From NCBI GenBank assembly GCA_022824365.1, contig JAJEAA010000018.1, positions 1 through 64,000 of the forward strand: 64,000 nt of DNA, read 5' to 3'. Made by a program: the position numbers and the translations under genes. Position 1 is the first letter of the stretch. Each line of letters opens with the position of its first letter. The notes under the pieces were generated by a model. That model worked only from the letters and a program-made list of their open reading frames with translations, was not told the origin of the DNA and searched no databases. Positions 59,733 through 62,561 of the stretch are shown here, piece after piece. Source of the DNA: Anaerolineae bacterium (GTDB taxonomy: Bacteria > Chloroflexota > Anaerolineae > Aggregatilineales > Phototrophicaceae).

Positions 59733-60245
59733 TTAACCTGCGACGATTTGCGACAGAATGCCCTCAAAGGCGGCATCGGCCAAGGCGCGGATTTCCTCGT
59801 CGCTGCGGTCCTGTATCGGATGAGGCACGTAGCAGACAGCGGGATTGAAGCCCAGCGCGGCGCCTTGCGCCTCGGCTGCTTCTACAAACTCGTCTGAAGC
59901 AATGAACATGCCGGGAATCCCGCGGGATTCGAGGTCGGTGATGTCGTGCACACTGCACGACGTGCATGAGCCTCAATCGGCTAAAGCTTCGACTACCAGG
60001 TCGCATTCACTCGCGATCTGATGCTTCAAGTCAACCGGGGCGACGCGGGTGAAGGTTGGCTTCTGATAGCGCCTCGCTTCAATGCCCATGCTGTCCAACC
60101 GAATTGCCAGTCGATCAAGAAAGATATCGCCTTTGGGCTTCGAGATATCGAGCAGCGCGATGCGCTTGTTGATCAGGGAATGCGGACGCGGAAGGCGTTC
60201 TCGCTGGGCTGGCGCGTTTTCTGATGTCGGGTCTAACAAAGGCAT
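59733..60245 (-). CDS. UGSC family selenoprotein, TGA (59975-59973) read as Sec
   Basis: One frame across the TGA: ...CDLVVEALAD-U-GSCTSCSVHDITDLESRGIPGMFIASDEFVEAAEAQ...; ATG 60245 with AAGGAG SD; the two halves are separate ORFs in the track. Confidence 0.9.
59943..59961 (-). promoter_or_regulatory. Bacterial SECIS-like hairpin
   Basis: GTCGTGC-AGTGT-GCACGAC starting 12 nt after the TGA; perfect 7-bp stem with GU in the loop. Confidence 0.82.
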
Positions 60246-60259
60246 GTCGGCACTCTCCT

Positions 60260-61738
60260 TCATAGTCCATACGATTTGATGGGCACAGTCACAGGGATAC
60301 TGCCATGGAGCCCGCTGGCGGCCCAGCCGGTGATTATCGCCGACCACATGCCGGCCGCGCCACCGGCGTGAACGATCAACAATCCGCTCGGGCGAAATTT
60401 GTTCACGCGTTTTCCAGCGAAACGCTTGGGCATTCCCTCGGCAATCCCGTCCTCGCCGGCCAAAACATCCCGACCGTCGATGGTCAGATGCTTGGCGAGC
60501 TCATCACGAAAGCGCGTCTTGCTCCAGCCGGCGCCGCGAAAAACCCGCATGTGCTCCGGCGAGATAACCAAGAGGGCATCGGCGGCGCCATAGATTTTCG
60601 CGTGATGAACCGTGCGCAAACTAAGCGCGAGGCTGCGGGTCAAAGATTCGGACGCGCGCGACTTCTGATCGGCGATGGGATGGACGCCGCCGCCGGCGAA
60701 GAGGGTCACGGTCGAATCGTCGCGACTGAATCCGCGTTCGACCGCCAGGGACTCCCAATATGAATCATGCTCGCGTTCGGCTATGCAGAAGCCGAGCTTG
60801 CCGGGTTGGCCCAGAGCGGCGCGGTCTACACCGCCCGGACGCCCGCCGCCGACATTACGGACGACCAGTTGCAGCGCCCGTCCAATTGTCGAGTTTGCTC
60901 GGTCGCCCTGCCCCAGCGCATTGTTGCCCGAGTTCATGCCGATTTTGTCGCGAATTGGACCATTGACGATGAGAATCGGACCGGCGAAGTAGGTGGTGGC
61001 GAGGACGCCGTGCATGCAGAATTCGTCGCGACAGGCGGCTTCGACCGCCGCCAGAACGACCGACAGATATTCCGGCTTGCAGCCAGCCATCACCGCGTTG
61101 ATGGCGATTTTTTCAACGGTGCAGGGAACATTATCCGGCGGGATGATGCCGATGATCTCGGCGGGCGAACGGGTCGTGCCTGTGAGCATTTTGAGCACGC
61201 GCTCTTCTGTCGGCGGGATGACGGGCAGGCCATCGGACCAGCCGCGCTCGAAAACGAGTTCGTGCTCGTCTTGTTGGGCAGCCACGTCAATGCGCCGGGC
61301 CTGCAAAGGCGTGTCGCCGAATTTGTATGCCAGTTTTTCGGGCATGCCGGGATCGACCGATTTCGAGCCGCAACCGGGACTGAAGCCCGGCAAGCTTTCG
61401 CCAAGCTCAGCCAATTGCGTCAGCCGACGCCAGTCATCTCTTTGCCAGCCCGCCAGTCTGCGCGTTTCGCGGCCGGCGTCCATCTGGATTAACGTTGGCA
61501 CGACTTCGATTTCGAGACGATAAGATAGCTCAAGCTCGGTGTCGTCGCGGACGCTCGTGATACTCTCCGGGAAGGCCGGGTCATCTTGCGAATAGAGCAG
61601 AAAACTGAGGCTGTCGTTGAGTTCGCGCAGCGCGGGTTCAATCAGCCGACAAGTCGCGCAGTCTCGTTTCACCACGGCTACGAAGCCGGTGAAGTCGGCC
61701 GGGAGCAAAGATTGAATTCGAGCCGTATTCTGCAACAT
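60260..61738 (-). CDS. Thioredoxin-like (CATC) domain fused to large UGSC-neighbour domain
   Basis: N-term FVAVVKRDCATCRLIEPALREL...EVVPTLIQMD; C-term ERGWSDGLPVIPPTEERVLKMLTGT...; likely start 61738. Confidence 0.8.
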   Translation of the reverse strand: MLQNTARIQSLLPADFTGFVAVVKRDCATCRLIEPALRELNDSLSFLLYSQDDPAFPESITSVRDDTELELSYRLEIEVVPTLIQMDAGRETRRLAGWQRDDWRRLTQLAELGESLPGFSPGCGSKSVDPGMPEKLAYKFGDTPLQARRIDVAAQQDEHELVFERGWSDGLPVIPPTEERVLKMLTGTTRSPAEIIGIIPPDNVPCTVEKIAINAVMAGCKPEYLSVVLAAVEAACRDEFCMHGVLATTYFAGPILIVNGPIRDKIGMNSGNNALGQGDRANSTIGRALQLVVRNVGGGRPGGVDRAALGQPGKLGFCIAEREHDSYWESLAVERGFSRDDSTVTLFAGGGVHPIADQKSRASESLTRSLALSLRTVHHAKIYGAADALLVISPEHMRVFRGAGWSKTRFRDELAKHLTIDGRDVLAGEDGIAEGMPKRFAGKRVNKFRPSGLLIVHAGGAAGMWSAIITGWAASGLHGSIPVTVPIKSYGL

Positions 61739-61815: not shown

Positions 61816-61977
61816 ATGACAGTCGGCAAAACAAGAGTAATAGCATTGAAACTGTCTGACATTTTCCGGGAAGGCTCTGACGCGCGAAAGCTGTTTGGGA
61901 AGTTTTACGCGGTGGCGGCGATCGGCATCATTCTGTTTGTGCTTGTCCTGCTCGCCTTGGCGACGCGCGGCGGCTAG
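61816..61977 (+). CDS. Small single-TM protein (53 aa)
   Basis: MTVGKTRVIALKLSDIFREGSDARKLFGKFYAVAAIGIILFVLVLLALATRGG. Confidence 0.5.
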   Translation: MTVGKTRVIALKLSDIFREGSDARKLFGKFYAVAAIGIILFVLVLLALATRGG

Positions 61978-62561
61978 TCGTAGTCTTCTTTTCCTTCAGA
62001 CCAGTAGGGCTCGAGCGCAACCCCCAAGCCATCGGCGATACGATTGACGTAGGCATAGTAGGCGACGACTTGCGCGATATCCAGAATGGCGCGGTCGTCA
62101 AAGCCGGCAGCCCGCAGGCTTTCGATGTCGGCCTCGGCAATATCCCAGGGCGTACGAGTCAATTTCGCTGAGTAATCCAGCATTGCCTTATCCGCCTCGG
62201 AAAGTTTGGCCTCCCGATAATCCGATTCGATATCGGCGGTGAAGTCCTTGTCTCCAGTCAACTGACGGAGGTTGCGCGCGTGGTGGCGCAGTCAGTATTC
62301 GCAGCGGTTAATGGCAGAGACGACCACACCAATCATTTCGCGCTGGGCGCGGGACAGTGGAGACTCGCCATACATCAGAGTTTTGTAGAGATGCTGATGG
62401 TCGACCAGGGAAGCCGGGTTGAGGCTATGGATTTTCATGATGTGGTCGACATTGCCCGTCTTCGGATCGGCGGCGCGACGATAAGCGCGCTGCAATGCGC
62501 CGCTTGCCTGTGCTTCGGGCACGGTTTCAATAAAGGCGATGCGAGGCTTGCTCGGTTTCAT
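61974..62561 (-). CDS. AhpD/carboxymuconolactone-decarboxylase-like peroxidase-related selenoprotein, TGA (62294-62292) read as Sec
   Basis: One frame across the TGA: ...VVSAINRCEY-U-LRHHARNLRQLTGDKD...; U replaces the second Cys of the CxxC...HH motif. Confidence 0.9.
62252..62270 (-). promoter_or_regulatory. Candidate SECIS-like hairpin for the AhpD-like selenoprotein
   Basis: CTCC-G-TC-AGTT-GA-CT-GGAG, +22 to +40 after the TGA; imperfect stem. Confidence 0.5.

Follow-up and report, generated by a model that had tools for sequence, protein, structure and literature searches.

Among the closest described systems are the glycine, sarcosine, betaine and D-proline reductases with their selenoprotein B (GrdB, GrdF, GrdH and PrdB). 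The selenocysteine (Sec) of GrdB and PrdB takes part in reductive cleavage (PMC3091704; PMC13188914), and oxidised GrdB is reduced by way of NADPH, thioredoxin reductase, thioredoxin (Trx) and GrdA (PMC3091704). For the fluoroacetate reductase FarBE, C-F cleavage by Sec attack has been proposed (PMC10838667). The small selenoproteins of the UGSC family were described separately: a 2008 survey records 255 UGSC sequences in the Global Ocean Sampling set, ranks the family first in non-marine samples and reports a fusion of UGSC to a domain called 'Unknown_1' (PMC2398784). Both UGSC and this fusion have been on record since 2008, and UGSC ranks with the most abundant selenoproteins of the environment. 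A 2026 review places UGSC among the selenoproteins whose functions are largely uncharacterised (PMC13188914).

The window, meaning the whole 64,000-nucleotide stretch of DNA analysed here, carries a UGSC gene on the same strand as a gene for a Trx-large domain fusion protein, starting 14 bp past its stop (Table 1). The fusion protein had been proposed in an earlier note on this DNA, and it corresponds to a real ORF on the minus strand with relatives in many genomes; the peptides quoted there (VKRDCATCRLIEPAL, VVPTLIQ, RGWSDGLPVIPPTEERVLKML, NSGNNALGQGDRANSTIGRALQLVVRNVGGGRPGGVDRA and GGAAGMWSAIITGW) were all found in its translation. A chance ORF is excluded because 103 relatives of the full-length protein were confirmed in genome contigs, of which 80 were kept, and because 33 of the 301 genomes from its phylum gave matches. 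The AlphaFold model of the protein had a pLDDT of 89.7 and a pTM of 0.81.

Table 1. Features of the UGSC/large-domain locus in the window
Feature	Position	Strand	Basis
Trx-large domain fusion protein P0001, 492 aa (ATG at 61738, stop ending at 60260)	60260..61738	-	Relatives; AlphaFold
Thioredoxin-like domain, residues 1-118	61385..61738	-	Weak sequence scores and Foldseek
CATC redox motif, C27 and C30	61649..61660	-	CxxC invariant in 73 aligned relatives
PGCGS linker motif, P121-S125 (C123 = 61372-61370)	61364..61378	-	Alignment of relatives
Large domain without a named family, residues ~148-484	60287..61297	-	Motifs; Pfam/NCBIfam/PDB searches
UGSC family selenoprotein, 170 aa (PF24696/NF041046)	59733..60245	-	E 7.7e-40 and 5.9e-44
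TGA read as selenocysteine (LADUGSCTSC)	59973..59975	-	Sole in-frame TGA; relatives
SECIS-like hairpin GTCGTGCA-GTG-TGCACGAC	59943..59961	-	Downstream of UGA
AhpD-like selenoprotein, peroxidase-related, CEYU (TGA 62294-62292)	61974..62561	-	TIGR01926, 5.2e-46

The N-terminal domain of the fusion protein is Trx-like and not a canonical thioredoxin. Its sequence matched thioredoxin models weakly (TIGR01068, E=0.0095; PF13098, E=0.02), and its scores stayed below the curated cut-offs (16.1 vs 96.8 bits for TIGR01068; 12.8 vs 23.5 for PF00085). Foldseek analysis of the AlphaFold model returned thioredoxins as the top PDB matches with a probability of 1.00, and C27, C30 and P81 (the cis-Pro of VPT) were invariant among aligned relatives, with CPTC, CATC, CETC and other variants of CxxC; the thioredoxin-like fold proposed earlier for this end of the protein is therefore borne out. 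The domain is followed by a linker (residues 119-130, containing PGCGSKSVDPG) in which the position of C123 was occupied by Cys or Sec in all 87 of the 87 fused proteins examined. In one relative (L081, 6316-6318) this codon is TGA (FKPGUGSLTVDPG), so that the Trx fusion may there be a second selenoprotein of the pair, or the TGA could be a sequencing error, because the source is a low-coverage MAG (cov 3.5). Exchange of Cys for Sec is usually the mark of a redox-active Cys.

The downstream gene exceeded both curated cut-offs of the UGSC family (149.6 vs 125 bits and 137.3 vs 25) and encodes the motif LADUGSC. The hairpin has a perfect 8-bp stem located 11 nt past the UGA, at the position expected of a bacterial SECIS, and the hairpin segment folds at -18.5 kcal/mol; over 105 UGSC genes, the fold downstream of the UGA had a mean z of -1.9 relative to mononucleotide shuffles. 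Recoding of the UGA is plausible because the source genome encodes tRNA-Sec and SelB, both above curated cut-offs. Sec was present in 101 of 101 relatives in which the motif was matched. On haloarchaeal plasmids the UGSC/large-domain pair is kept, with Cys replacing Sec, and Roseovarius likewise has a natural Cys form of UGSC. The thioredoxin-like fold guessed for UGSC in the 2008 survey (PMC2398784) was rejected, since the structure predicted in a joint AlphaFold model matched flavodoxins in Foldseek (E 8e-5), which suggests a flavodoxin-like fold.

The occurrence of the two genes is tightly coupled. Both UGSC and the large domain were present in 31 of the 301 genomes, with one genome carrying the domain only and one carrying UGSC only (Fisher p ~6e-40; genome G226, matched via the Trx part alone, was left out of these counts), and UGSC adjoined the large-domain gene in almost every locus with sufficient flank. 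Of 79 gene pairs, 13 share a 4-nt overlap of their ends, and most others lay <100 nt apart. Chloroflexota, Actinomycetota, Alpha-, Beta- and Gammaproteobacteria and Myxococcota show the order Trx-domain then UGSC; in other lineages UGSC preceded a large domain that lacked Trx. Natural fusions of UGSC to the large domain, for which a search had been recommended, were detected at L026-L030, L023 and L021, and further fusions form ORFs of ~560-575 aa in Vibrio europaeus and Sporomusa. Linkage to UGSC is thus near-obligate beyond the window, and the two behave as one unit. The suggestion in the earlier note that the fusion protein may be the redox partner of UGSC stood as far as the partnership itself is concerned; the true pair is UGSC and the large domain, to which the Trx part is an optional, electron-feeding addition. 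Because they are almost always adjacent and sometimes fused, UGSC and the Trx-domain protein probably constitute one selenium-dependent reducing enzyme.

Several loci departed from this layout. The UGSC part of the L023 fusion is degraded and reads GFGDTRSG, with neither Cys nor Sec at the site, and the UGSC parts of two other fusions (L129 and L130) scored weakly and had aconitase X/DUF126 genes nearby; these three fusions probably represent a derived branch. Large-domain genes without an adjacent UGSC were rare (L112:12735-16857 and L123:8125-9087). On plasmid pFER4 of Paracoccus ferrooxidans (L132), selA and selB flank the pair, as though the machinery for selenocysteine travelled with it. 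The 'Unknown_1' domain of the 2008 survey is probably the same large domain.

Comparison of 55 UGSC members with selenoprotein B models gave matches for 37 to TIGR01917, 33 to GrdF, 16 to TIGR01918, 10 to GrdH and 5 to PrdB, and no other function recurred among these 55 members to a comparable extent. The best match had an E of 1.8e-5, with the Sec motif inside the alignment; the UGSC protein of the window, taken alone, matched GrdB models weakly (E=0.005-0.01). The curated GrdB/GrdF models were used because an hhalign comparison of UGSC with four GrdB sequences carried little information (few sequences, N_eff 2) and did not confirm homology. At the sequence level, these matches indicate homology between UGSC and the Sec domain of selenoprotein B from the glycine, sarcosine and proline reductases, with a similarity that is weak for any single sequence. 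UGSC comprises 170 aa compared to ~430 aa for full-length GrdB. By analogy, the pair probably resembles the glycine/proline reductase B complex in how it works; it is not a member of that complex, because it lacks a full-length GrdB and has a partner other than GrdE/PrdA.

A supply of Trx or thioredoxin reductase (TrxB), as in a protein B complex, was found in terms of genomic linkage, either as the fused Trx or as trxB/trxA neighbours. Cultured carriers of the pair include Roseovarius sp. THAF8 and Arthrobacter sp. ERGS1:01. At loci devoid of fused Trx, trxB occurred close to the pair in at least seven cases (L008, L028, L127, L128, L131, L133 and L157, from Roseovarius, Variovorax and others), including a trxB-trxA-domain-UGSC operon in Arthrobacter; trxB was near the pair in 0 of about 85 fused loci, with denominators counted by hand over loci that are not phylogenetically independent. 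A joint AlphaFold model of the Trx-domain protein and UGSC of L033 (670 residues) had a pTM of 0.82, vs 0.81 for the first protein alone. It is compatible with a defined interface and is no proof of one, because an artificial read-through linker joins the chains.

Free Trx-like proteins homologous to the fused Trx end in FKPGU-G/T, with Sec. At L159-L162, L164 and L165, mostly away from Grd genes, such tails read FRPGUTS, FKPGUGS, FKPGUTP, FKPGUGP and QPAUVS, and no description of this recurring C-terminal Sec tail was found here. These proteins were not adopted as markers for Grd-like loci at large, since among the genomes with inspected flanks grdB adjoined only in G065. That Chloroflexota stretch (L153, G065:C216, 386-11111) holds three GrdB/GrdE pairs, with UGTC/UGSC in GrdB, a GrdA-like selenoprotein frame (QTHCFVUTSAG) and, immediately upstream of one grdB, a ResA/Prx-like selenoprotein ending in FKPGUGSRH.

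The gene neighbourhood bears on the likely substrate class. The AhpD-like selenoprotein was found directly upstream of the Trx fusion at 23 of 24 Anaerolineae/Chloroflexota loci (L031-L054) and was absent at loci of other phyla. Neighbours elsewhere encode CoA-transferase III, SDR, 2-hydroxyacid dehydrogenases and enoyl-CoA hydratase, along with TRAP and tripartite tricarboxylate transporters and LysR/IclR regulators, and suggest organic-acid catabolism. Together with the UGSC paralogues, of which a genome can hold up to 11, they suggest substrate-specific catabolic copies. The AhpD-like neighbour of the window fusion fits peroxide or thiol defence as well, and it keeps open the main rival reading, in which the pair is an antioxidant system, a Sec-dependent peroxidase or a hydroperoxide/protein-disulfide reductase, that is fed by the fused Trx and acts with the AhpD-like selenoprotein. 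The Trx fusion with its CxxC would suit such a role, and many Trx-like selenoproteins are peroxiredoxin-like, according to the 2008 survey (PMC2398784). However, the AhpD-like gene is confined to one phylum while the neighbours in others are catabolic, UGSC has relatives of the GrdB type and none among peroxidases, a peroxidase gives little reason for so many paralogues in one genome, and peroxide reduction needs no 340-aa partner domain. An antioxidant function is therefore considered unlikely.

The large domain carries the conserved motifs DGLPxxPPT, NAVMAG (NAVMAGC in the window), NGP, ANxTIGRA and AExE, and is confidently predicted by AlphaFold to be alpha/beta; D169, R287 and E321 of the fusion protein mark its conserved pocket. 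No sequence relative was detected in Pfam, NCBIfam or the PDB using the protein alone, 54 diverse members or their profile, so that the earlier statement that this remainder matches no named enzyme family held even with the 54-member profile. It is a widespread family of bacteria and haloarchaea without a Pfam or NCBIfam model. In Foldseek searches of the models against the PDB and viral models, most of the signal came from the Trx and UGSC domains, and nothing convincing emerged for the large domain; the weak matches to class I fumarases (7xky and 6uqn; E ~0.01, probability 0.33-0.51) were judged insufficient for a fumarase-like fold. These matches, and the aconitase X/DUF126 genes near two distant members, would accord with the large domain being an independent, ordinary enzyme, e.g., a class I fumarase-like hydratase, and UGSC a redox protein for regulation or repair. 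Yet the three Fe-S Cys ligands of class I fumarases are absent, none of the Cys is invariant among the 54 members, which leaves no ligand set for an Fe-S cluster, and there is no sequence relation to any Pfam or NCBIfam hydratase. As UGSC and the domain are also almost never apart and are fused in several lineages, this explanation appears improbable. The outcome named beforehand as contrary to the proposal, a well-known unrelated enzyme in the C-terminal domain and no UGSC linkage elsewhere, was seen in neither respect. Redox chemistry is unlikely within the large domain itself because it has no invariant Cys. That the pair is a true member of the glycine/D-proline reductase family, its large domain a diverged GrdE/PrdA still forming a pyruvoyl group, is very improbable despite the UGSC-GrdB homology and a Trx supply as in Grd systems, since the comparison with GrdE by hhalign (E 0.19, probability 0.3%) and the lack of an invariant, pyruvoyl-forming Cys speak against GrdE/PrdA as the identity of the large domain, and the source genome has no match to PF07355 (GrdB).

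The explanation favoured here, and held to be fairly probable, is that both genes contribute to a single selenoenzyme, a Trx-dependent Sec reductase of Grd/Prd-like type with the large domain in place of GrdE/PrdA. Its catalytic subunit would be UGSC, the Sec of which lies in a flavodoxin-like domain sharing ancestry with the Sec domain of selenoprotein B. This Sec would attack a small substrate and so cleave or reduce it; organic acids and amine derivatives are the probable candidates. The large domain would act as the obligate partner that binds and presents the substrate, a role equivalent to that of GrdE/PrdA without relatedness to them. The selenenyl-sulfide left by turnover would then be reduced by thioredoxin. 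In the form found in the window, the fused Trx may pass electrons via CATC and then via Cys123 of the linker (PGCGS, with Sec in some relatives), giving a putative relay from NADPH through TrxB, CxxC and PG(C/U)GS to UGSC; loci without the fusion can instead encode free TrxA/TrxB nearby. With an obligate partner, a Sec domain of GrdB type and a likely electron donor, the uncharacterised UGSC becomes a testable enzyme. More tentatively, and with somewhat less than even confidence, these systems may be another class of Grd/Prd-type selenoenzymes that was put together independently of the first and is common beyond the classical fermentative anaerobes. In it the unnamed domain would replace GrdE/PrdA, a Trx with a redox-active PG(U/C)GS tail would replace the GrdA/PrdC shuttle, and radiation would have produced many substrate-specific paralogues for the reductive opening of C-X bonds in organic acids.

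Compared with the known UGSC entries (PF24696 and NF041046), the UGSC protein of the window is a full member; those entries cover the small Sec protein only, and its obligate large partner has neither model nor name. The fusion protein shares the fold, CxxC and cis-Pro with thioredoxin and TlpA/ResA-like proteins, but adds the C-terminal PG(C/U)GS redox motif and a second domain. With GrdB, GrdF, GrdH and PrdB the system has in common a homologous Sec domain with UxxC (UGSC vs UGTC/UGSC), a partner subunit, a thioredoxin supply and substrate-specific paralogues. It differs from them in that UGSC comprises the Sec domain only, that the partner is not GrdE/PrdA and lacks the pyruvoyl Cys, that Trx is fused in the window form, and that the pair occurs mostly in lineages other than the amino-acid-fermenting anaerobes used for work on Grd/Prd, including haloarchaea with Cys for Sec. 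FarBE (PMC10838667) provides a precedent for the adaptation of Grd-type Sec proteins to other small organic acids; it uses GrdB/GrdE homologues, whereas the system of the window is built from UGSC and the large domain.
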